A DNA stretch of 64,000 nt from Thermococcus sp. M39 (GTDB lineage Archaea > Methanobacteriota_B > Thermococci > Thermococcales > Thermococcaceae): the NCBI RefSeq assembly GCF_012027325.1, contig NZ_SNUG01000003.1, forward strand, positions 310,001 through 374,000. Direction: 5' to 3'. Positions 48,546-64,000 of this stretch are shown here, in pieces (the first letter of the stretch is position 1; each line of letters starts with the position of its first letter). A model generated the notes under the pieces. That model was given only the letters and a program-made list of their open reading frames with translations. It was not told the DNA's origin and did not search any database. A program made the position numbers and the translations under genes.

Positions 48546-49820
48546 GTGAGGTGGTTCTGTGTGTTGCATATACGTAATGGCAATACGTATTCTGTACAGA
48601 AGTGTACAGCAAAGAAGGTAACACTGTCTGTTCGTGCCGATTTAGTGGAATTAGCGAAGCAAAATGGCGTTAATATGACAAAACTGTTTGAGGAAGTGTT
48701 AGAAGAAAGATTAAAGTCTGGAGCCCGGGTTAATGGTAGCCCCGCGGGGATTCGAACCCCGGTCGCGGGATCCAAAGCCCGTCGGAAAAGCCTTTATTCG
48801 TCGAATGAAGGTCTTACATGGCTTATTTCAGAAGAAGCCATGAAAATGCCCCAACAGGCATTTCCAGCCATAGGACATGTTTTCCACAGTAGTGGTAAAC
48901 AAGACTACTACAGAAGGCTCCTTCAGGTTCAGAATCCAAACCAGTACTACATCATCACAGAGGAAGACATCAACAGGCTCTTCCTGGAGTTCGAAGCAAA
49001 GGGAGTCACCCACTCCCACAAACGAAGCGTTGAGTACATCATCACAATGTTCCTGAAGGAAGCCACGAAAGAGAACCACGGAAGATACATTTTCACAATG
49101 AAAGACCTGAAAGAATACCTGACCCTGATACGACAGTCATACTCCCCCTCCTTTTACCGCAAAAACATCACATACCTCAAAAAGCTCTTCAGAATCGCAC
49201 AGATAGACCTTGCAGAATCCCTCAAGGCACCAACAGAGCTTAACGTGGACCTAACCATTGTGACTGTTGATGACATCAAGAGCCTCATTCAGCTCGTTGA
49301 TTCTCTCCACCTAAGCAACCGTTTTGAGGACTGGAAGAGGGATCAGTTTATCACAGCAATGCTCCTCATGGCAGTGAGTGGAATGAGGGTAAGCGAACTC
49401 GAAAGGGTTCCCTTGAAGGAGATTGACATTGAAAACAGGCGGATTCGCCTTAACACGCACCAGACAAAAACAAGACAGGCAAGGGTCGTCTTTTTCACGT
49501 CGGAGGTTCAGGAGTTGCTGGAGGACTACATCAGAACTCACAGACCAAACGTGAATCTGCCCTTGGCTACGATAGCCCAGTTGCAGAGGCCCTTCCGCAA
49601 AAAAAGCCCCCTTAGAAACCAGAAACTCAGACCAAAACACATGCGGAAATTCTTCGCTCAGGAATGGGATCGACGGAACGGAAATGCGACTATCAAAAAG
49701 ATGCTGATGGGTCATTCAATAAGATACGATATCAATGCACTGCATTACTCACACCATACTGTTGATGAACTACAAGATGCGTACAACAAGATCTTTGGTA
49801 ATCTACGATTCCTAAGATAA
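48546..49820 (+). CDS. int: SSV-type tyrosine recombinase (integrase)
   Basis: Up to 424 residues. An N-terminal ribbon-helix-helix-like part (KKVTLSVRADLVELAKQN) is followed by a segment encoded by tRNA-Gln sequence (residues about 63-77), a core-binding domain and the catalytic domain. Active-site positions are R281 in VSGMRVSELE, a Lys-containing hairpin near 310, HMRKF near 360, GHS near 383 and the nucleophile Y401 in LHYSHH. The frame opens at GTG 48546; GTG 48561 behind GAGGTGG is an alternative. Unlike most integrated SSV-type elements, the gene is not split at its attachment site. It probably served a plasmid or virus-like element lying to its right. Confidence 0.88.
   Translation: MRWFCVLHIRNGNTYSVQKCTAKKVTLSVRADLVELAKQNGVNMTKLFEEVLEERLKSGARVNGSPAGIRTPVAGSKARRKSLYSSNEGLTWLISEEAMKMPQQAFPAIGHVFHSSGKQDYYRRLLQVQNPNQYYIITEEDINRLFLEFEAKGVTHSHKRSVEYIITMFLKEATKENHGRYIFTMKDLKEYLTLIRQSYSPSFYRKNITYLKKLFRIAQIDLAESLKAPTELNVDLTIVTVDDIKSLIQLVDSLHLSNRFEDWKRDQFITAMLLMAVSGMRVSELERVPLKEIDIENRRIRLNTHQTKTRQARVVFFTSEVQELLEDYIRTHRPNVNLPLATIAQLQRPFRKKSPLRNQKLRPKHMRKFFAQEWDRRNGNATIKKMLMGHSIRYDINALHYSHHTVDELQDAYNKIFGNLRFLR
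48734..48777 (-). repeat. Attachment site: 3' half of tRNA-Gln (UUG) inside the integrase gene
   Basis: Read on the minus strand, the 44 bases give the anticodon loop CTTTGGA, the 3' anticodon stem TCCCG, a full T arm (CCGGGGTTCGAATCCCCG), CGGGGCT of the acceptor, A and CCA. The sequence beyond the loop does not continue as tRNA, so this is a partial copy and not a gene. SSV-type integrases carry attP in exactly this way. The expected intact tRNA-Gln (UUG), the attB, is not in the window. Confidence 0.8.
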
Positions 49821-54097: not shown

Positions 54098-54815
54098 CTA
54101 CCACTTCAGTTCACCCCAGTAATCCTCGGGAACGTTCACTCTGAGGCCCCATCTGCGGTCAAAACGGCCCTTCGGGGGTATGGTTGGGTCCAGCAGAGAA
54201 AAGCTTCTGGGGTTCTTTTCGGGTATTTTTATTTTCCCCCTCAAGACCGAGACCGAGCCTTTCGCTGAGGAAACCGAGCCTCTTCAGGATTGCCCTGTTC
54301 CTCATTCGCTCCGCGTACTCCAATAGGGTTTTCCTGCCAAACACGCTATTTCTCAATGCCTTCATGACCTCACTGATGCCCCCACAGTACTGAGGCTTGT
54401 CAAGGCAGTCAATCAGAGTCTTTTCCGAGTCAGTTATGTCAACGTTCCTTCCACCGATTCTGATGGTGCTCAGTCCGAAAAACTTGTGGGGCCTGACCGT
54501 CACGACTCTGAATCTTTGCCCGCCGATGCTTATCCTCCCGGGTATCCTCTCTTTCTGGGGGTCTGGATGAACGTTGTCTGCGGAATCTGCTCCGTGAGTC
54601 CGTAGTAGTTGAGGGCGCTCCAGTAGGCTATGGTCAGAGGGTTTCACGACTAACGATGCCAATAGGAAGTTGTCTACCACAGGTGGCTGGCCTGGGTTGG
54701 GGGTTACGGTGTAGATCTGAATCTTATCGCCTATGCCCAGCTTTTCCTTGGCTTCTCTGACGGTGAATGCCTCCCCTAGCTCCATGAGCTTTTTCAGCAC
54801 TTCCACCTTGTTCAT
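54098..54815 (-). pseudogene. Frameshifted AbiEi-type antitoxin gene
   Basis: From ATG 54815 (KVEVLKKLMELGEAFTVREA) the gene reads into TVDNFLLASLVVKP-like sequence. It then shifts to TIAYWSALNYYGLTEQIPQ then TTFIQTPRKRG, shifts back to ISIGGQRFRVVTVRPHKF, FGLSTIRIGG and DITDSEKTLIDCLD, and finally shifts again to DPTIPPKGRFDRRWGLRVNV, ending at TAG 54098. The AbiEi/COG5340 C-terminal signature is clear. Two of the shifts cancel, so a 256-residue frame (54159-54929) stays open but its middle part is scrambled. No nucleotidyltransferase partner is adjacent. Confidence 0.75.
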
Positions 54816-55073
54816 TTTTTCTCGCCTTATGCTAAGGATTTTGGGTATTATTTGAGAACTTTTGAATTTGAGAGTTTTGTGTGAAACATAATCTGTGCTC
54901 CAGGTACGAGGATAAGAGTTGAACCACAAAACTGCAATTATGTAAGAGTTCTGTTTCTACCATGACACGGTTGTGGTGCTTCCATTGCACTCTCCCCAAG
55001 TCTTCCAGCCAAAATTTAAAAACATCGGAATCGAAAATTAAGGCGGTTTAAACTCATTGGGGGAGTGATCATT

Positions 55074-58000
55074 ATGATGACAACCGAAAGTAAAAGCCTC
55101 GTGGATGAAGCCAAAACCGTTGAGTCTCTTCTCAAGCGCCTCGAAACTGAAACCTCAATTAGCGATGTCATGGAAACGTTTAGGAAGATTTTCGAGCACT
55201 GGGGTTTTGAGCACGAGGATGAGGACATTGAGAGGGATTACCTCGACGACTTTGTGGATGAGAACACGGGCGAGTTGAGGATAATCTCTGTTGCTTCATC
55301 TGATCTTGGCCTAAACTTCTACGTCATCTACGCCGAGACCTGGAAAGACACGCTTAAGTACCGTCAAAAGCTCGTGAAGAACCTGTTGAACTTTACGTCA
55401 TTTACATCTGACATCTCATTCGCTAACTTCATTCTCATCCTGGATGTGATAGAGAACCCAAAAAGCAAGAGGCACAAGTACTGGAAGCTCATCATTCCCA
55501 TCTATCAGAGAAAGCTTGAGAGCGCGAAGCTCAACGTCTACGTAATCGACCCAGAGGAGAAGAAGTTCAGGACGCTGGCAACGAACATCGCGAAAGTCGC
55601 CATGGAGCTCAGGGGGCACGATACGCTCTCCGCCAGCCTAATTAGGGATGCACTGAGTGAGTACATGCTCGTTAGACCCTTGACTGAGGAGTTCTTTAAG
55701 GAGTACAAGAGGAACTACTACGACCTTAAAAACTGGATTAAAAAGATATACGGCCCCAAACTGAGAGCCCTCTGCCCAGATGACTACCTCCTCACCGATG
55801 AATTGACGGAGATCCCCAAAGCAAAGAGGGAAGAAATATTCGTTGAAAGGGCTGCCAAAACCTTCGCCCACACGTTCTTCAACAGGCTGATGTTCGTCTA
55901 CTTCCTCCAGAAGAAGGGATGGATAGTTGACCTCAGTGCCCTTAGAAAGGATCTCAGGGATGAAGTTGACGTCAGGAACTTCGTCAAGTGGCTCCACGAC
56001 CAGTATGAAGAACATGGCGGTAACTTCTACCGGGACTACCTTAGGGTTCTCTTCCTCTACGCGATGAACCGTCCGAGGAGGGGCTACAGCCGCAAGGATA
56101 TTGATGCTATCAAGAGCGTTCCATCCCCAGTCGTCAGAGACGTCTTTCTCTACGGTGTTCCTTACTTTAACGGCGGACTCTTCAGCCCGGTTGAAATCGC
56201 GGGCGTTAACCTCGACGAGGTTATCACGGAGATAGACGACAGGCTCATGACCGAAATCGTGATGGGTTTCTTCGAAGAGTACAACTTCACCGTCACGGAG
56301 GAGACACCTTACGAGGTTGAGGTTGCCGTTGACCCGGCCATGCTCGGCAAAATCTACGAATCCCTGATTGCCGAGGAAGAGCAGGTCGAGAGCGAGGAAG
56401 AGAGAAGAGCCTCTGGAATATTCTACACCCCAAGGAGCGAAGTTGACTTCATGTGCAGGATGGCCATTTACGAGTACCTCGAGAGGAACACCAAACTTGA
56501 TAAAAACGTCCTTAGGCGGTTCGTGTTTACCCCATCCTATGAGTGGGACCCAAAGAGTCTCTCTTGGGAAGAAATAGACGCCCTCGAGAAGGCTCTTAAC
56601 GAGGTTAAGATCGTTGACCCAGCCGCTGGAAGCGGTGCGTTTCTCGTTGGAATGTACCATCTCCTCATAGAGCTCCACGAAAAGCTCACCGAGGACAACA
56701 GAGTTACCTACAAGAAGAAGCTTGAAATCATCAGGGACAACATCTACGGTGTCGACATAAAGGACTGGGCGATAAGGGTGGCAAAGCTCAGGCTATGGTT
56801 AGCGCTCATTGAAGGTGAAGGGAGGATTCCAAACGAGCCAATTTTACCCAACCTTGAGACGAAGCTCGCCGTCGGGGATTCTCTCGCTCCGCCACACTTC
56901 GTTCTGAAAATCGGCAACAAGAAGAAAGTCATTGAGATACCCTTGGCCAAATTCAGGGAGAGCCTTAAGCTTCTCTGGGCCAAGAAAGGTGCGAGTGAGG
57001 CGATAGTCGCTTACAAAGAGCTCGTGAGAAAGTACTACATGGGAGAGAAGATAGACGGGAAGCCTGTAACCCTGAGGGACATCGAGAGGGCCAAGTGGGG
57101 TGCGCTCCAGGAGTTTCTTGAAAGGGCCCTTGAGGAGGAGCTGAAGGCTAAGGAGAAGAAAGAAGTTAAGCTGCTCCTTGAAGCCGTCAAGAACGAGGAC
57201 TTCTCGGCCCTTGAGAAGCCCCCCTTCATCTGGGAGCTTGACTTTCCGGATGTCATGCTTGAGAAGAGGGGTTTCGACATCGTGATAGCTAATCCCCCCT
57301 ACGTGAGGCAGGAGAAGATTTACCCGGAGTACTACGATTTAGCAGAGTTCCAAATGCTGCCAAAGAAGGAGCAGAACAAGCTCAAGAAGGACTACAAGAA
57401 CAAGATAAAGACCCACATGGAGACCATCATAAATGAGAAGTTCAAGAGCGATATGGCCCTTCCCGGCAGGAGCGACCTCTATGCGTACTTCTTCATCCAG
57501 GGCGTCAACCTGTTGAATCCAAAGGGAGCGCTGGTCTTCATTACATCCAACTCCTGGCTCGACGTTGACTTTGGAAAGGCTCTGCAGGAGTTCTTCATTA
57601 GAACCACCCACTTGAAGGCGGTTATCGACTACACGAGGAGGAGCTTCGAGCAGGCCGATGTAAACACTGTGATAACCGTTCTCACAAGGAAACCTCCCAA
57701 GCTCTTCAATCTGCTGGACGAGAAGTCCTTCACGAACTTCGTCCTCCTCAAGAGGGACTTCGGCGAGGTTGACATGGAGACCCTGAACAAAATCCTCGAG
57801 CCCCACTTTGACGAGAAGGGAATCGAGGTCTTTGGAGGAATAGTTCACAGCTCCGAGGACGATGACGTCAGGGTGAGGAGCGTTAAAGCGGTAGAGCTGG
57901 CGAAGATGGGTGGTTTTAAGGTTCAGGAGTTCCTCAAGGGAACATACACGCTCCAAGGTGAATACAAGGGCATGAAGTGGGGAGGGATACTGATTAGGGC

Positions 58001-59021
58001 TCCAAGGATATTCTATGTAATTCTGGACAAGGGCAAGGGGAAGCTTGTAAGACTGGGAGAGATTGCCGAGGTCAGAAGGGGCTTTACAACTGGAGCAAAT
58101 GAGTTCTTCTACCTTGAACCTATTAAGAACCCAAAGGAGTGGCCCGTTTGTAAGATATGCGGAAGGGTTCACAAGCCTGGCGAAGGCCTGGTCGCGGTGA
58201 AGAATAAGGCTGGCTGGGAAGGCTACATCGAGGAGGAGTTTTTGAGGCCTGTTGTGAAGAGCCCGCAGGAGATACGGACATACAGGATCAGGCCGGAAGA
58301 CCTTAAGCTCAGGGTGTTCCTATGTAACCTCTCGAAGGAGGAGCTTAAGAAACAGGGGAAAGTCCACGCGTTGGAGTACATTGAATGGGGAGAGAACAAG
58401 GGATATCAAAACAAACCTACATGTAGAGCAAGAAATCCATGGTGGGCGTTAGGGGACAGAAAAATCGGAAGTTTGGCCTCCATGATGAGTTATAACACCA
58501 GGTTTCCTTTCTGGTTAAATGATATTGCTCTATGTGATGCACGGCTTTATGACATCTACAAAAAACTGGATATCTCATCAGAGCTTTTAGCCAGTGTATT
58601 AAATACAACTCTAGTTCCAATAATCATTGAGCTTACAGGAAGAGCTAATTTAGGAGAAGGTGCTTTGGACTTCAAAGTTTATGAGACTGCTGAAATTCTT
58701 GTTGTGAATCCAAAAATATTCTCACAGAGTCAAACTCAACAACTCCTCCAAGCCTTCGAACGCATGGCCAACCGCGAAATCAAGTCCATCTTCGAGGAGC
58801 TCGGCCTCCCGAAGCCAGACCGCGATTTGAGCAACATCAATCCAAAGGACGTCTCCCTTGACAGGGTTCTCCCGGACAGGCGCGAGCTCGACAAGGTCAT
58901 CTTCGAGGCCCTCGGCTTAACAGAGGAGGAGCAGCTTGAGGTTTACAGAGCTGTGGTGGAGCTCGTGAAGGCGAGGCTGGTGAAGGCAAAGACGTTTTCG
59001 AAGAAGAAGGGGAAGAGGTGA
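55074..59021 (+). CDS. Large Eco57I-type DNA methyltransferase of a defence island
   Basis: About 1315 residues. A long N-terminal region (to about 440) includes VERAAKTFAHTFFNRLMFVY then FLQKKGW. ASGIFYTPRSEVDFM near 450, SAM motif I DPAAGSGAFLVGMYHLL at about 515, IYGVDIKDWAIRVAKLRLWL near 565, motif IV IVIANPPYVRQEKI near 740 and a TaqI-like specificity domain follow, with cysteines CKICGRVH near 1025. The enzyme probably methylates adenine; a nuclease activity in the N-terminus is possible but not shown. ATG 55074 or 55077 is the start (GGGGGAG upstream). The gene is GC-rich except for about 58390-58745. Its stop region supplies the GAGGTGA for the kwaA-like gene. Confidence 0.85.
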   Translation: MMTTESKSLVDEAKTVESLLKRLETETSISDVMETFRKIFEHWGFEHEDEDIERDYLDDFVDENTGELRIISVASSDLGLNFYVIYAETWKDTLKYRQKLVKNLLNFTSFTSDISFANFILILDVIENPKSKRHKYWKLIIPIYQRKLESAKLNVYVIDPEEKKFRTLATNIAKVAMELRGHDTLSASLIRDALSEYMLVRPLTEEFFKEYKRNYYDLKNWIKKIYGPKLRALCPDDYLLTDELTEIPKAKREEIFVERAAKTFAHTFFNRLMFVYFLQKKGWIVDLSALRKDLRDEVDVRNFVKWLHDQYEEHGGNFYRDYLRVLFLYAMNRPRRGYSRKDIDAIKSVPSPVVRDVFLYGVPYFNGGLFSPVEIAGVNLDEVITEIDDRLMTEIVMGFFEEYNFTVTEETPYEVEVAVDPAMLGKIYESLIAEEEQVESEEERRASGIFYTPRSEVDFMCRMAIYEYLERNTKLDKNVLRRFVFTPSYEWDPKSLSWEEIDALEKALNEVKIVDPAAGSGAFLVGMYHLLIELHEKLTEDNRVTYKKKLEIIRDNIYGVDIKDWAIRVAKLRLWLALIEGEGRIPNEPILPNLETKLAVGDSLAPPHFVLKIGNKKKVIEIPLAKFRESLKLLWAKKGASEAIVAYKELVRKYYMGEKIDGKPVTLRDIERAKWGALQEFLERALEEELKAKEKKEVKLLLEAVKNEDFSALEKPPFIWELDFPDVMLEKRGFDIVIANPPYVRQEKIYPEYYDLAEFQMLPKKEQNKLKKDYKNKIKTHMETIINEKFKSDMALPGRSDLYAYFFIQGVNLLNPKGALVFITSNSWLDVDFGKALQEFFIRTTHLKAVIDYTRRSFEQADVNTVITVLTRKPPKLFNLLDEKSFTNFVLLKRDFGEVDMETLNKILEPHFDEKGIEVFGGIVHSSEDDDVRVRSVKAVELAKMGGFKVQEFLKGTYTLQGEYKGMKWGGILIRAPRIFYVILDKGKGKLVRLGEIAEVRRGFTTGANEFFYLEPIKNPKEWPVCKICGRVHKPGEGLVAVKNKAGWEGYIEEEFLRPVVKSPQEIRTYRIRPEDLKLRVFLCNLSKEELKKQGKVHALEYIEWGENKGYQNKPTCRARNPWWALGDRKIGSLASMMSYNTRFPFWLNDIALCDARLYDIYKKLDISSELLASVLNTTLVPIIIELTGRANLGEGALDFKVYETAEILVVNPKIFSQSQTQQLLQAFERMANREIKSIFEELGLPKPDRDLSNINPKDVSLDRVLPDRRELDKVIFEALGLTEEEQLEVYRAVVELVKARLVKAKTFSKKKGKR

Positions 59022-59027
59022 ATCTGT

Positions 59028-59606
59028 GTGCTTAAAGGATGGGCAAAGCTCGTTTTAGGTTTATTAGCTTATTCTCCTCTCTTTGTGATAATACTGATAA
59101 AAAACCTTCCTTTGGTGTGGGGACTTATTGCTGGTGCGGGAGTATTTATCATTATTTTTCTGTTGTCTCGGGCAGTTATAAACTCCGTGAAGAAAACAAG
59201 TGGACAGTTGATACTAGTTAGGATAGATAGAGAGATCAATGAACAATATGTCGGTTTTATTATCACGTACATAGTTCCATTTATTGGGACTATTAAGACT
59301 GTGAATGACATAATTTCTATGGGAATTTTGCTCGTCGTCATATTTGCTTTGTATCTAACGACGTCTCTATTTGCCGTTAATCCTCTATTGAAGTTACTCT
59401 TTGGGTACAACCTTTATCTATGCACTATTAATAATAAAGATGGAATACTATTGTCAATGGAAAAACTTAATAGGGATGAGGAATTATTTTTGCCAGCATA
59501 TTGCTTAGATTCGGGATCTCACATTTTCATTCATCATAGGGGAGGCGTGATGAAACATGAATCAGGTAACAGCGGAGATGGTGGAAAAGACTCCAACAAG
59601 GATTAA
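59028..59606 (+). CDS. kwaA: KwaA-like four-helix membrane protein
   Basis: 192 residues with four hydrophobic helices (about 6-25, 28-49, 74-93, 97-122), then a short soluble tail (FGYNLYLCTINNKDGILLSM, LPAYCLDSGSHIF). Size, topology and the position directly before a KwaB-like gene match KwaA of the Kiwa anti-phage system, in which membrane-embedded KwaA senses infection and KwaB acts on DNA. GTG 59028 has GAGGTGA six bases upstream, inside the methylase stop. It overlaps the kwaB-like gene by 50 bases. The gene is far more AT-rich than the methylase gene. The family assignment rests on context and topology more than on motifs. Confidence 0.6.
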   Translation: MLKGWAKLVLGLLAYSPLFVIILIKNLPLVWGLIAGAGVFIIIFLLSRAVINSVKKTSGQLILVRIDREINEQYVGFIITYIVPFIGTIKTVNDIISMGILLVVIFALYLTTSLFAVNPLLKLLFGYNLYLCTINNKDGILLSMEKLNRDEELFLPAYCLDSGSHIFIHHRGGVMKHESGNSGDGGKDSNKD

Positions 59607-60624
59607 AGTTTCAGAACTTGAATTTCACCCATTAGATGGAGTCCCGGTAATTACTCCAAGAATGTTTATCATCAAACGGTATCGTACCCAAAAAGAGGAG
59701 AGCACTCCCTACAAGTACCTATTTTATCCCGCCACCATTACTGATGAAGTGGCAGAAAGCTTTAAAGAAATCCTATCTACTTACATTGATTCCATTTCAA
59801 AGCTAGAAACAGAGAGTATTCCAGTGTATCACCCAGATTTGGAAGAATTTCCTTGCTATGTTGAATTAACTTCAGATAGTTTTCCATACTGGTCACATTT
59901 TGTCAATGTCCTGAAGTTGGACTATGAGACAAGAGCTCCCAAGAATATTGAGAGTAATCTCTGGGGGTATCTGTTTTATCTACGTGCTCCATACTACGCA
60001 ATAGGGTATGCGAAGAGATTATCAAAAACCAAAATTGTCAAGAAGAAACGTTTTTTAAAAGGTGGCCTTGTTGATAGAAATATCGTCTTTAATGCAGTCG
60101 AAGAAATTGATGGAATAGAATTTGATGACTCTGTAGACTTTTTATTTGTTGTAGAGTTTAACAAGGGCAATCCCAATCAAGTAGAATCTTCATGGGGGAT
60201 AATTTGGAGCAAGAACGGTTTTGAGTCCATGTTAGATGTCTATGAGCATCAAAAGCAAAAAGCTTTGGAGGTTTTAAACCGGTGTCGCACCCTTCCATCT
60301 ATTCTCTTTGACGACGACCTTGAGAGATTTAAAGAAGTTGTAGAATCCAACAGACAGCTTCACAGGATGCTATTAAACCCCGTAACTGAAAAATACATGA
60401 ATGAGGTTAAACTGGAGGACTTTAAACAGGTAAAAGAAAAGTTTGGTGATGAGGTCTCATTTGACGTCGATGAAGAGCAGGGAAAAGTGGTACTCCCCGC
60501 TCCAGATTCTAATAGGGAGTATCTAAAGGCTATTCGGGAGATTTTAAGCGTGCTTGGTGCTCGTTTCACAAAAACTCTTAACGATGACCATATTTTAAGA
60601 GGAAAACCGGAGGAACTGAGATGA
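59557..60624 (+). CDS. kwaB: KwaB-like (DUF4868) anti-phage protein
   Basis: 355 residues. The C-terminal two-thirds resembles DUF4868: YAIGYAKRLSKTKIVKKKRF, then DSVDFLFVVEF, IIWSKNGFESMLDVYEHQKQ, ALEVLNRCRTLPSILFDDDL, then IREILSVLGARFTKTLNDDH and ILRG. In Kiwa, KwaB binds DNA and blocks late phage replication and transcription. The N-terminal 130 residues are less conserved. ATG 59557 lies inside the preceding gene behind GGGGAGGCGTGA, and its stop overlaps the next ATG (ATGA), so three genes are translationally linked. A Kiwa operon in a hyperthermophilic archaeon would be notable. An alternative is an unrelated family with a similar end. Confidence 0.6.
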   Translation: MNQVTAEMVEKTPTRIKVSELEFHPLDGVPVITPRMFIIKRYRTQKEESTPYKYLFYPATITDEVAESFKEILSTYIDSISKLETESIPVYHPDLEEFPCYVELTSDSFPYWSHFVNVLKLDYETRAPKNIESNLWGYLFYLRAPYYAIGYAKRLSKTKIVKKKRFLKGGLVDRNIVFNAVEEIDGIEFDDSVDFLFVVEFNKGNPNQVESSWGIIWSKNGFESMLDVYEHQKQKALEVLNRCRTLPSILFDDDLERFKEVVESNRQLHRMLLNPVTEKYMNEVKLEDFKQVKEKFGDEVSFDVDEEQGKVVLPAPDSNREYLKAIREILSVLGARFTKTLNDDHILRGKPEELR

Positions 60625-61622
60625 AAAAGGATAACAACATAAGCCTTAAACAGTTTGTCATGGACTTAAATAATGGATTAACACAAATAATTCAAAGGTT
60701 CCGTCAACCAAGGGAAAAAGACATTGTTGAACAATACATCAGCAAAATAAAACAGAGCTATGAAAACAAAAAACTTCGAATAAGCATGCCTTCAGGGGAA
60801 GAGTATCATCTAAAAATTAGAACTAAGTTTGTTCATGGAAATCCACGTGTAAAATTTAATCCTATCTCAGGTCCCTGTGGGAAAAAGGAAATAGAGTTAG
60901 GAGATATCCTTTTTGTCGTTAAATACCAGGATCCTTCTTTAGTACACTCTCAGGATCCTCTTCACCTCAAGCAGGCTAGAATGTCACTTTTGCAAGTTAA
61001 ATTGAATAAAGGAGGAAAATTAACACCACTCAAACGGTACCAGTTCAAAATTAAAGTCCCATCAGGGGTCTGGAAGATAGAGAGTCATCAACAGGAATTC
61101 ATGATTAATCCTTCTAGTTATCCATTTACATTCGGTGAAATCAAAAATCAAAAGATAAGCTCTAAGTCCAACTGGCTGTTTACTTATCTGTTAATAACCA
61201 ACAAGAAGATTCCTAGTCTAGCTGTAAGTCCTAGGTTAATAGAGGATTTACTGAAAAAGAAAGACTGTGAATATCACTCGCTTCCTTTAAGGTTTTTTAT
61301 TTCAGTGTTTAATTCCAAAGATCCGGCATTCTCTGGATTGATTTGGGAAAGCACCTTTGTGGGGGGAGGATATGCACTGTGGCTTTACAAATTTCTTAAG
61401 GAAGATAGTCTTGGAGGATACATAATAAATGATGGCAAAATCGTTAACCCCGAATTAAAAAATCTGTGGGATGCTATTTACAGATTTGCAAAATTCACCC
61501 CTGATCCTCCCGGGGAATTTGACGAATACACAGGGGAAGGTCCTTTTGGTGTCGTTGAGTTTACATTTGCCCCCTCTGAGGAGGTTATGAAACAATACAA
61601 AGAGTCCAGAGAGACTATGTGA
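60621..61622 (+). CDS. Unrecognised protein with nuclease-like E..D...QxK signature
   Basis: 333 residues; no named family is recognised. The segment KKEIELGDILFVVKY (E90, E92, D95) followed by ARMSLLQVKLNKGG (Q125-V-K127) looks like a PD-(D/E)XK variant in which the catalytic Glu is replaced by Gln, as seen in several restriction and repair nucleases. The next strands (PLKRYQFKIKVPSGVW) and a C-terminal helical half end with FGVVEFTFAPSEEVMKQY. It overlaps the KwaB-like gene by ATGA and shares its AT-rich composition, so it is a third member of that system. A nuclease or DNA-end sensor is the working guess. Confidence 0.6.
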   Translation: MKKDNNISLKQFVMDLNNGLTQIIQRFRQPREKDIVEQYISKIKQSYENKKLRISMPSGEEYHLKIRTKFVHGNPRVKFNPISGPCGKKEIELGDILFVVKYQDPSLVHSQDPLHLKQARMSLLQVKLNKGGKLTPLKRYQFKIKVPSGVWKIESHQQEFMINPSSYPFTFGEIKNQKISSKSNWLFTYLLITNKKIPSLAVSPRLIEDLLKKKDCEYHSLPLRFFISVFNSKDPAFSGLIWESTFVGGGYALWLYKFLKEDSLGGYIINDGKIVNPELKNLWDAIYRFAKFTPDPPGEFDEYTGEGPFGVVEFTFAPSEEVMKQYKESRETM

Positions 61623-61656
61623 TTCTCTCCTCTATTTTTCATGATTTTAGTTTAAC

Positions 61657-61686
61657 TAACAACCACTAACTTTTTATGGGTTGTTA
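61657..61686. promoter_or_regulatory. Inverted repeat at the AbiE operon promoter
   Basis: TAACAACC (61657-61664) and GGTTGTTA (61679-61686) form an 8-base inverted repeat 15 bases before the AbiEi ATG. AbiEi antitoxins are known to repress their own promoters by binding inverted repeats, so this is the probable autoregulatory operator. Confidence 0.6.
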
Positions 61687-61700
61687 GCTAAATTGAAAGT

Positions 61701-62324
61701 ATGAAGCCCGTCATTCAGCTACTCGTCTCGACATATGGAGGTAAGGTAATAACCCGCGAAGAACTTGAAAAACTTGCCTCCTACTTCAATGAGGACGTTG
61801 ATTATCTGGTGAACTATCTTATTCAATACGGTTACGTTATTCGTATCTTGCGGGGCATCTACTACGTGAAAACGCCGGTGGAGTTCTCAACCGGTGGTTC
61901 TCCTTCAATTTACAGGCTTCTCTCCCTTGGAATGAGTAAAATAACGAAGAACTGGTACTTCGGTCTCTTCACGGCCCTGATTCTCAACGGCCTTACCCAT
62001 GAAACCTACACGACGATCTTCATAATAAACGACAGACTCGCAAGACCAAGGCCTATCCAGGTGAATGGAACCCCAGTAAGGATAATCAGGAGCAGAAGGG
62101 ATATCTTCGACTTTGGGATAGTCACCAGAGACTCCCTCCGGTTTTCAGACCTAGAAAAGACGCTCCTTGACTTCTTCTACTTCGCCAACTATGGAACTTT
62201 GCCTAAGAGCTTGGCGTGGAGACTATGGAAGGAATATTATGGGATGGCAGACCCCACGAAACTCAAAGAGTATTCCAAAAAATATTCCCGTTCAATACAG
62301 AAGGTGATCGAAAATGTTGAATGA
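61701..62324 (+). CDS. abiEi: AbiEi-type antitoxin (type IV toxin-antitoxin system)
   Basis: 207 residues. An N-terminal winged helix (LVSTYGGKVITREELEKLAS, then YVIRILRGIYYVKTP) is followed by the COG5340-like domain (MSKITKNWYFGLFTALILNG, RIIRSRRDIFDFGIVTRDSL, RFSDLEKTLLDFFYFANYG). AbiEi represses the operon and counters the AbiEii toxin without forming a tight protein complex. The reading frame is intact. It overlaps abiEii by 11 bases. The winged helix matches decayed copies at 48175 and 53181. Confidence 0.85.
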   Translation: MKPVIQLLVSTYGGKVITREELEKLASYFNEDVDYLVNYLIQYGYVIRILRGIYYVKTPVEFSTGGSPSIYRLLSLGMSKITKNWYFGLFTALILNGLTHETYTTIFIINDRLARPRPIQVNGTPVRIIRSRRDIFDFGIVTRDSLRFSDLEKTLLDFFYFANYGTLPKSLAWRLWKEYYGMADPTKLKEYSKKYSRSIQKVIENVE

Positions 62325-63330
62325 TTCACTTCTAATAGAGATTCGCAGGAACGAACGGAGGGGCTTTGCAAACTTCGTTTCAAAGAAAACCGGAATAAAA
62401 TCCGTTGACCTCGTGGAATGGGATTACATAATCCACACGATTCTGAAAGAACTTGAGAAAGACCCGGCTTTCAGAGATAACTACGTCTTCAAGGGTGGAA
62501 CCTGCCTTGTGAAATGCCATCTCGGTTACTACCGCTTCAGCAGGGACTTGGACTTCGCGTATCGGCACACCGATGAGCTCAGGGAGATAAGCAGGAGCAA
62601 GCTCAAAAAATTTCTGAACGAAGAAACCGGTAGAATCGCGGAGATTTTGAGATGTGTGGCTAGGGATTTGGGCCTTGAATTTCAATACAGGAACCATAGT
62701 GACTTCAACAACCACAGGTATTTCAGTTTTCTCCTCGGTCCCGGCTGGTTCAGGGAGATAATACTCTACTCCCCTCTTGGGGAGAAGATAAAAATCGAGA
62801 TAAACTACGCTGAAAGATTGGCCTTCAAGCCAAAAACCCTAAAGGCAAACACCATCCTCTCTTGGAAGCGTGTTGAACTCACTTCAAGAGACTACGAAAA
62901 ATACATTGAGTTCCTCGGTAACTATTATCCCGTTCCCCTCGCGGCTTATTCTGACAGAGAGATTCTCGTGGAGAAGGTTAGAGCCCTCCTGACGAGGAAA
63001 GAGTTCAAACTCAGAGACCTCTATGACCTTTACAAGCTTCACCAGAGGGGTCTCAGGATATCACGTTACAGCAAAGAAATAGGAGGCAAAATCAAGGATT
63101 ATCTCAACTTGAGTTCCACCGCCTCTGAAAACCTGAAGAACTCGATAGAAGCCCTTAAGGAGAGAAGCTTTCTTAGCAACCTCGAACCCGAGATAGAAAG
63201 AGATATTGGACTCATCGTTGAGCCCTTCTCAAGGGAAGAGTTTTTGAACTTCGTTAGGGAGTTACGGTTAGAACTCTTGGACATTATTGAGGGGCTAGAG
63301 GACTTAGTCGGGGTGAAAACCGATGGCTGA
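62314..63330 (+). CDS. abiEii: AbiEii/AbiGii-type nucleotidyltransferase toxin
   Basis: 338 residues with the DNA-polymerase-beta-like toxin signature: FKGGTCLVKCHLGYYRFSRD then LDF at 59-81 (GG-T, then S76-R77-D78-L79-D80), YSPLGEKIKIEINYAERLAF near 150, and the C-terminal EKVRALLTRKEFKLRDLYDL near 210-229. Related toxins add nucleotides to tRNA ends or bind GTP and stop growth. All hallmark residues are present, so it is presumably active unless restrained by AbiEi. It overlaps the PLD-protein gene by 8 bases, tying the toxin to the rest of the island. Confidence 0.88.
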   Translation: MLNDSLLIEIRRNERRGFANFVSKKTGIKSVDLVEWDYIIHTILKELEKDPAFRDNYVFKGGTCLVKCHLGYYRFSRDLDFAYRHTDELREISRSKLKKFLNEETGRIAEILRCVARDLGLEFQYRNHSDFNNHRYFSFLLGPGWFREIILYSPLGEKIKIEINYAERLAFKPKTLKANTILSWKRVELTSRDYEKYIEFLGNYYPVPLAAYSDREILVEKVRALLTRKEFKLRDLYDLYKLHQRGLRISRYSKEIGGKIKDYLNLSSTASENLKNSIEALKERSFLSNLEPEIERDIGLIVEPFSREEFLNFVRELRLELLDIIEGLEDLVGVKTDG

Positions 63331-64000
63331 ATCGGCCATACACCTTCTCGACAAACACGGTCTCGTTGACAACAAACGGGTGATGTTGATAGATGTTCTC
63401 AGGGAGGTTTTGACCTCAGGAGACTACAACCAGATAGACGTTGCCGTGGGTTTCCTCTTCATAAGTGGCATGAAGGAGATTCAAAACGAGCTTGAGGAAT
63501 TCTTCTCGAACGGGGGCAAGATGAGAATTGTGATAGGTAACCAAACAAACAGGGAAACCTTCGAGCAGCTTAGTATGGTCTACCATTCCCTTGAGACCCT
63601 CAAGAAGATAAAACGCCGTGAGAAAAGTGTAGAAACGAACCTTGACCAACAGAGCGAGGACATCGAAAAGAACGCCAACTTCATGGAGCAAACCGAGGAG
63701 AACGAGAGGTTTCTGAGGAGGCTTATGGACTGGATTCAGAACGAGAAACTTGAGATTAGAATCTACATCAAGGAATTCATGCACGCTAAAGCGTATCTAT
63801 TCTACCCTTCAAGGCCGTCCGTAACCCGGATGGGGCTCGTGGGTTCAAGCAACTTTACGCTGGCAGGGTTCTCCGGCAACACCGAGCTGAACGCCATCGT
63901 GCAGTCAACCCACTTCGAGAGCCTGAAAAAGTGGTACGATGAGATTTGGGAGGAGGCCCTTCCATTTAACCCGAAGCTCCTAGAGATAATAGAAAATAGC
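63323..64000 (+). CDS. Phospholipase D-domain protein, N-terminal part (possibly a helicase)
   Basis: The first 226 residues are in the window. They form a PLD-like domain: QIDVAVGFLFISGMKEIQNE, GGKMRIVIGNQTNRE, then the HKD-type motif HAKAYLF at H154-A-K156 and GLVGSSNFTLAGF near 172, followed by WYDEIWEEA. Proteins with this beginning commonly continue into an SNF2/DEAD helicase and are found with large Eco57I-type methylases in archaeal restriction and DISARM-like systems. ATG 63323 overlaps the AbiEii stop. Whether a helicase follows cannot be seen. Confidence 0.75.
   Translation, partial: MAESAIHLLDKHGLVDNKRVMLIDVLREVLTSGDYNQIDVAVGFLFISGMKEIQNELEEFFSNGGKMRIVIGNQTNRETFEQLSMVYHSLETLKKIKRREKSVETNLDQQSEDIEKNANFMEQTEENERFLRRLMDWIQNEKLEIRIYIKEFMHAKAYLFYPSRPSVTRMGLVGSSNFTLAGFSGNTELNAIVQSTHFESLKKWYDEIWEEALPFNPKLLEIIENS

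Follow-up and report, generated by a model that had tools for sequence, protein, structure and literature searches.

In this study, a stretch of 64,000 nucleotides of Thermococcus sp. M39 (in the following, the window) was analyzed with respect to a group of closely packed genes at its end. The third gene of the group is named 'kwaC' (product 'KwaC') provisionally and only in the present work. The locus comprises the following genes and features:

55065–59021, plus strand: gene of a large N6-adenine DNA methylase (1,318 aa, Eco57I/type IIG-like), opening the operon
59015–59021, plus strand: Shine-Dalgarno-like GAGGTGA of kwaA, read directly from the DNA and overlapping the methylase stop
59028–59606, plus strand: kwaA (192 aa, GTG start), predicted membrane protein and Kiwa sensor subunit
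59557–60624, plus strand: kwaB (355 aa), by homology the DUF4868-type DNA-binding Kiwa subunit
60621–61622, plus strand: third Kiwa gene kwaC (333 aa), family-less, directly after kwaB in relatives
61651–61692, no strand: inverted repeat whose arms enclose a TATA-like CTTTTTATG, probable operator/promoter of AbiEi
61701–62324, plus strand: abiEi-like gene (PADLOC AbiEi, 4.2e-104), separate cargo module
62314–63330, plus strand: gene of an abiEii-like nucleotidyltransferase toxin (Pfam AbiEii, 3.2e-24; PADLOC, 3.9e-135), separate cargo module
63323–64000, plus strand: 5′ part of a PLD-SNF2 helicase gene (PLDc_2, 3.2e-13; RE_NgoFVII, 4.2e-08), closing the operon

The helicase gene continues beyond the window on the same contig to about position 66703 (seen in L008/L009). 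The three open reading frames of a preliminary description (192, 355 and 333 aa) were found at exactly these coordinates, together with the overlaps reported there, i.e. 50 nt between kwaA and kwaB and 4 nt (ATGA; 60621–60624) between kwaB and the third gene. Also, its placement of a ribosome binding site inside the methylase stop was confirmed, as GAGGTGA contains the TGA (59019–59021) and lies 6 nt before the GTG. The 4-nt overlap of kwaB and kwaC is particular to this genome, the relatives having gaps of 4–7 nt. All three genes are real, since the open reading frames are kept open in relatives, dN is well below dS wherever dS was estimable, and the gene order recurs. We infer that the genes of the operon are co-transcribed.

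The 192-aa protein matched twelve PADLOC KwaA models (best 6.5e-18), the NCBIfam KwaA family under its cut-off (2.1e-13), and two solved KwaA chains (best PDB 9mrg, 4.9e-05). On these profile matches, it is assigned as a KwaA homologue. Of the four membrane helices ascribed to it previously, three appear as strong hydrophobic peaks (residues 6–24, 29–47 and 99–117), while a fourth is possible and stays under the hydropathy cut-off. A tblastn search of plasmids with KwaA gave one open reading frame (Vibrio europaeus), and the adjoining next gene is annotated as KwaB-like.

For the 355-aa protein, the proposed resemblance to DUF4868/KwaB was borne out by sequence profiles and gene order. It matched PADLOC KwaB with 2.4e-07 over residues 37–324 (288 residues, near full length), as did five of six scanned family members in total (best 4.5e-09). 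Pfam KwaB (PF16162) matched the homologue in genome G039 alone, which is 81% identical, with 9.9e-06, just under the cut-off. The protein is therefore best classed, by profile comparison, as a divergent KwaB under the Pfam threshold. The G039 homologue (L005:11087-12163) resembles the window KwaB up to about residue 235 (85–90%), and past this point it resembles those of G041, G053 and L028 (85–98%). This change of affinity makes it a hybrid with a switch near residue 236 and marks a recombination inside kwaB.

The order methylase-KwaA-KwaB-KwaC recurs in three other archaeal genomes (G039, G053 and G041) and on one contig of a metagenome-assembled genome (MAG; L028), so that the search of archaeal genomes for the three-gene order proposed with the preliminary description yielded four genomes plus one MAG contig. 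The latter is 5 kb long and binned as Helicobacteraceae; because the similarity of its methylase and Kiwa genes to the archaeal ones is so high, it is probably a contamination of that bin. In all six methylase-linked loci, kwaA lies immediately upstream of kwaB, and in five of them kwaC follows kwaB with a spacing of −4 to +7 nt. In the sixth (G033), methylase, KwaA and KwaB are directly followed by a coiled-coil gene without KwaC. Among the 18 genomes with the methylase, KwaC is confined to Kiwa carriers (4/5 versus 0/13 without Kiwa; 0.0016 in a simple hypergeometric calculation that ignores relatedness). KwaC was absent from the three Kiwa loci inside type I systems, from G021, and from the two bacterial plasmid Kiwa loci examined. 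Its lack in G033, in the type-I-nested loci and in G021 indicates that Kiwa does not need KwaC everywhere. The known KwaC members are few and mutually related. The locus represents a three-gene Kiwa variant with a coupled third gene, restricted to Thermococcaceae and one probable contaminant contig.

The methylase matched Pfam Eco57I (8.4e-32) and PADLOC REase_MTase_IIG (8.9e-55), its translation carries the DPAAGSGAFLVG and NPPY motifs, and it is present in 18 of 115 genomes of the phylum. In its stretch 58065–58815, some pairs are only about 50% identical at the DNA level, and the identity to the otherwise more distant G033 is 78–96%; the stretch probably encodes a target-recognition region that has been swapped between relatives. 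Wherever the contig allows, the fetched loci have the same PLD-SNF2 helicase after the methylase, with variable genes in between; a full-length relative of the helicase (L007) matched PADLOC C3a139 (HKD+Snf2; 5.8e-60). This slot holds Kiwa, an AAA_15 ATPase, a coiled-coil gene, AbiE, or a pair of ATPase_2 and RAMA genes, and nothing in G012. Plasmids of Thermus and Halorussus carry a similar methylase followed by a helicase-related gene. As Kiwa nests in a cargo slot bracketed by methylase and helicase, the earlier claim of a new three-gene architecture coupled to a methylase holds for the three genes, while the methylase belongs to the host operon and is not specific to Kiwa.

Three other Thermococcaceae (G049, G022 and G037; type I domains checked for G049) have a different Kiwa, placed between the hsdM and hsdS genes of a type I system, and this operon (L025:5820-15297, L026, L027) also holds a GmrSD-like gene. 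A profile comparison of methylase-linked with type-I-linked KwaB revealed no significant link, so that either the distance between the two Kiwa lineages is large or the few sequences make the method too weak. In G021, KwaA and a KwaB-PKD fusion lie between housekeeping genes; a KwaB with a fused C-terminal PKD domain was recorded at L024:8553-9878. Altogether, eight of the ten confident KwaA loci of the phylum are inside restriction operons of two different types.

With respect to the other cargo, the core of the AbiEi inverted repeat (TAACAACCACTAA...GGTTGT) persists in six relatives with different upstream genes, and it is therefore probably an AbiEi operator travelling with the module. A second AbiEi-like gene lies upstream of the methylase on the minus strand (54159–54929; PADLOC 1.1e-38, residues 130–241), where no AbiEii partner was noticed. 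The island adjoins Cdc6/Orc1 and both DNA polymerase D subunits, the large one bearing an intein, and a tyrosine integrase is found on its other side (coordinates listed for this surrounding: L009:5743-14416 and about 48546–49820 in the window); its position may mark a site of integration close to an origin of replication. The helicase is followed by a DUF365 gene here, in G041 and in T. profundus, and G053 has an EVE-domain gene on the upstream side of its methylase (coordinates listed for these observations: L009:1755-2213, L006:14939-15370).

KwaC itself had no family match in Pfam, NCBIfam or PHROGs and one marginal match in PADLOC (0.0043 over 28 residues); with loose thresholds, these four collections yielded nothing useful. 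Relatives with 47–50% identity are located directly after kwaB in G039, G053, G041 and L028. No KwaC was detected among viral contigs, phages or plasmids, nor in 399 genomes akin to the L028 bin, weak matches being noise upon inspection. A collection of genome contigs, from which close relatives of the window may be missing, gave L028 only. Beyond the Kiwa-linked members, 396 archaeal genomes gave only two credible distant homologues (G034 and G045), labelled DivC, which each adjoin an OLD/AriA-like ATPase-TOPRIM gene (domain content checked for G045). Comparison of the KwaC and DivC profiles resulted in a probability of 90.6% and an E-value of 1.3e-06 over 130 columns. The DivC loci (L054:2955-4151 and L055:8167-9276) are arranged divergently from the ATPase-TOPRIM gene, with which DivC possibly forms a new two-gene defence pair. 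Across KwaC and DivC, an early E, then E92-x-G-D95 and then Q125-x-K127 are invariant; in the core, the strongest conservation falls on charged or polar residues (E, E-x-G-D, R, Q-x-K), which KwaC and DivC have in common at an identity of about 20%.

Wherever an estimate of dS was obtained, dN/dS was roughly 0.05–0.09 for KwaA, 0.12–0.21 for KwaB and 0.18–0.43 for KwaC. By these estimates, KwaC is under purifying selection yet evolves faster than the other two proteins. The window and G039 share 93% protein identity in KwaA, 81% in KwaB and 47–48% in KwaC, and within kwaC conservation at the DNA level is lowest in the first half of the gene. KwaC of G039 is closer to the second lineage (about 58% to G053) than to the window, less markedly so than the end of KwaB. 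Since physical linkage alone could explain this pattern, it hints only weakly at a functional link between KwaB and KwaC.

We consider it fairly probable that KwaA, KwaB and KwaC form an archaeal three-part Kiwa, carried as cargo of a methylase/PLD-SNF2-helicase restriction-modification operon. In its favor count the homology of KwaA and KwaB, the tight spacing of kwaC after kwaB, the confinement of KwaC to Kiwa carriers, the purifying selection on it, the profile match and invariant residues common to KwaC and DivC, the AAA-TOPRIM gene of defence type beside DivC, and the description of two-gene Kiwa as binding DNA uncut. The Kiwa loci lacking KwaC, the poor structural models and Mrr comparison, and the few, related KwaC members count against it. 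Here, KwaA would sense the entry of a virus at the membrane and anchor KwaB, which would bind the incoming DNA. KwaC would work with KwaB on the bound DNA, perhaps as the nuclease missing from two-gene Kiwa, and the system would thereby protect the cell against viruses. The methylase/helicase pair would be a separate layer restricting unmethylated DNA and sharing its transcription with Kiwa.

The residues E92-x-G-D95 and Q125-x-K127 can be set beside the PD-(D/E)XK pattern (acidic residue, G-D, then E/Q-x-K, placed on successive strands), a likeness of motif only. The two AlphaFold models of KwaC had low confidence (pLDDT 38.7 and 57.2), and a Foldseek search gave nothing significant; matches to SET domains and others had a probability below 0.2 and were discarded as meaningless. 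Kinship to Mrr-type nucleases found no support, the profile comparison being no better than column-shuffled controls. Thus, with Foldseek on the low-confidence models and the Mrr comparison giving no support, KwaC was not filed as a PD-(D/E)XK member. That KwaB, within a three-subunit archaeal Kiwa, recruits KwaC as a dedicated nuclease from a new family to membrane-entering DNA consequently seems unlikely; if true, Kiwa would shift from a DNA-binding block to a DNA-cutting defence.

Somewhat better placed, though still less likely than not, is a non-catalytic role of KwaC within Kiwa as a regulator or adaptor, e.g. restraining KwaB or recognizing a signal of archaeal viruses. Its faster change compared to KwaA and KwaB and the low DNA conservation of the first gene half fit such a role, as does the lacking fold support for a nuclease, but the invariant charged and polar core common to DivC would rather be expected of an active or binding site.

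It is doubtful that KwaC is an independent, stand-alone defence gene which came to adjoin Kiwa by chance as slot cargo in a few related genomes. The slot does house many unrelated modules, homologues occur away from Kiwa beside the OLD/AriA-like gene, and in G033 this slot contains Kiwa but no KwaC. However, KwaC in the slot is always right after kwaB (overlap or gap of at most 7 nt) and never without Kiwa; by contrast, the coiled-coil and AbiE neighbors do occur without Kiwa. Even less likely is a methylase acting as a functional part of Kiwa, by protection of self DNA or by PrrC-like sensing of restriction failure, for which the eight of ten confident KwaA loci in the two types of restriction-modification operon and the precedent of PrrC inside a type I system (PMC12707154) can be adduced, whereas the same methylase/helicase backbone exists with other cargo or none (L053), Kiwa exists without this backbone in G021 and on two bacterial plasmids, and immune operons are known to harbor unrelated defences as a general pattern (Payne et al. 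2024, cited in PMC12988326).

Under the preferred reading, the Kiwa of heat-loving archaea may consist of three parts, with the extra protein contributing an activity that is otherwise missing. With a quickly changing third gene added right after kwaB, this lineage offers a natural experiment on the needs and deficits of Kiwa, and KwaC is a defined candidate for tests. As Kiwa is nested repeatedly in restriction operons of two kinds within a single archaeal family, it may also be asked whether both defences work better together.

In comparison with known systems, the restriction part has the Eco57I-type methylase and the PLD and SNF2 domains of restriction by SauUSI-/DISARM-related PLD-SNF2 helicases with a type IIG-like methylase; N6-adenine methylase motifs, PLD-type nuclease and helicase domains were all found, which points to a restriction-modification system of this kind. 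Different from these, a slot for variable cargo lies between the two genes. DISARM and BREX were rejected, with no DrmA, DrmB, PglZ or BrxC among the operon proteins and large neighbors scanned. As in known cases of embedded defences (guilt-by-embedding; PrrC in type I systems), a complete unrelated defence module resides inside a restriction operon, the embedded module here being Kiwa with an extra gene. A literature search gave no description of Kiwa in Thermococcales or of an embedded Kiwa with an extra gene. In two-gene Kiwa, membrane KwaA tetramers are bound by KwaB dimers, which bind incoming DNA without cutting it (PMC12904381). The locus shares with it the KwaA membrane protein followed by an overlapping KwaB/DUF4868 protein, both matching family profiles. 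It differs by the nesting in a restriction-modification operon, the divergent KwaB, the archaeal host, and the third coupled gene, which is found in five of the six methylase-linked loci and sets this Kiwa apart from the bacterial two-gene system as a variant and not the canonical form.
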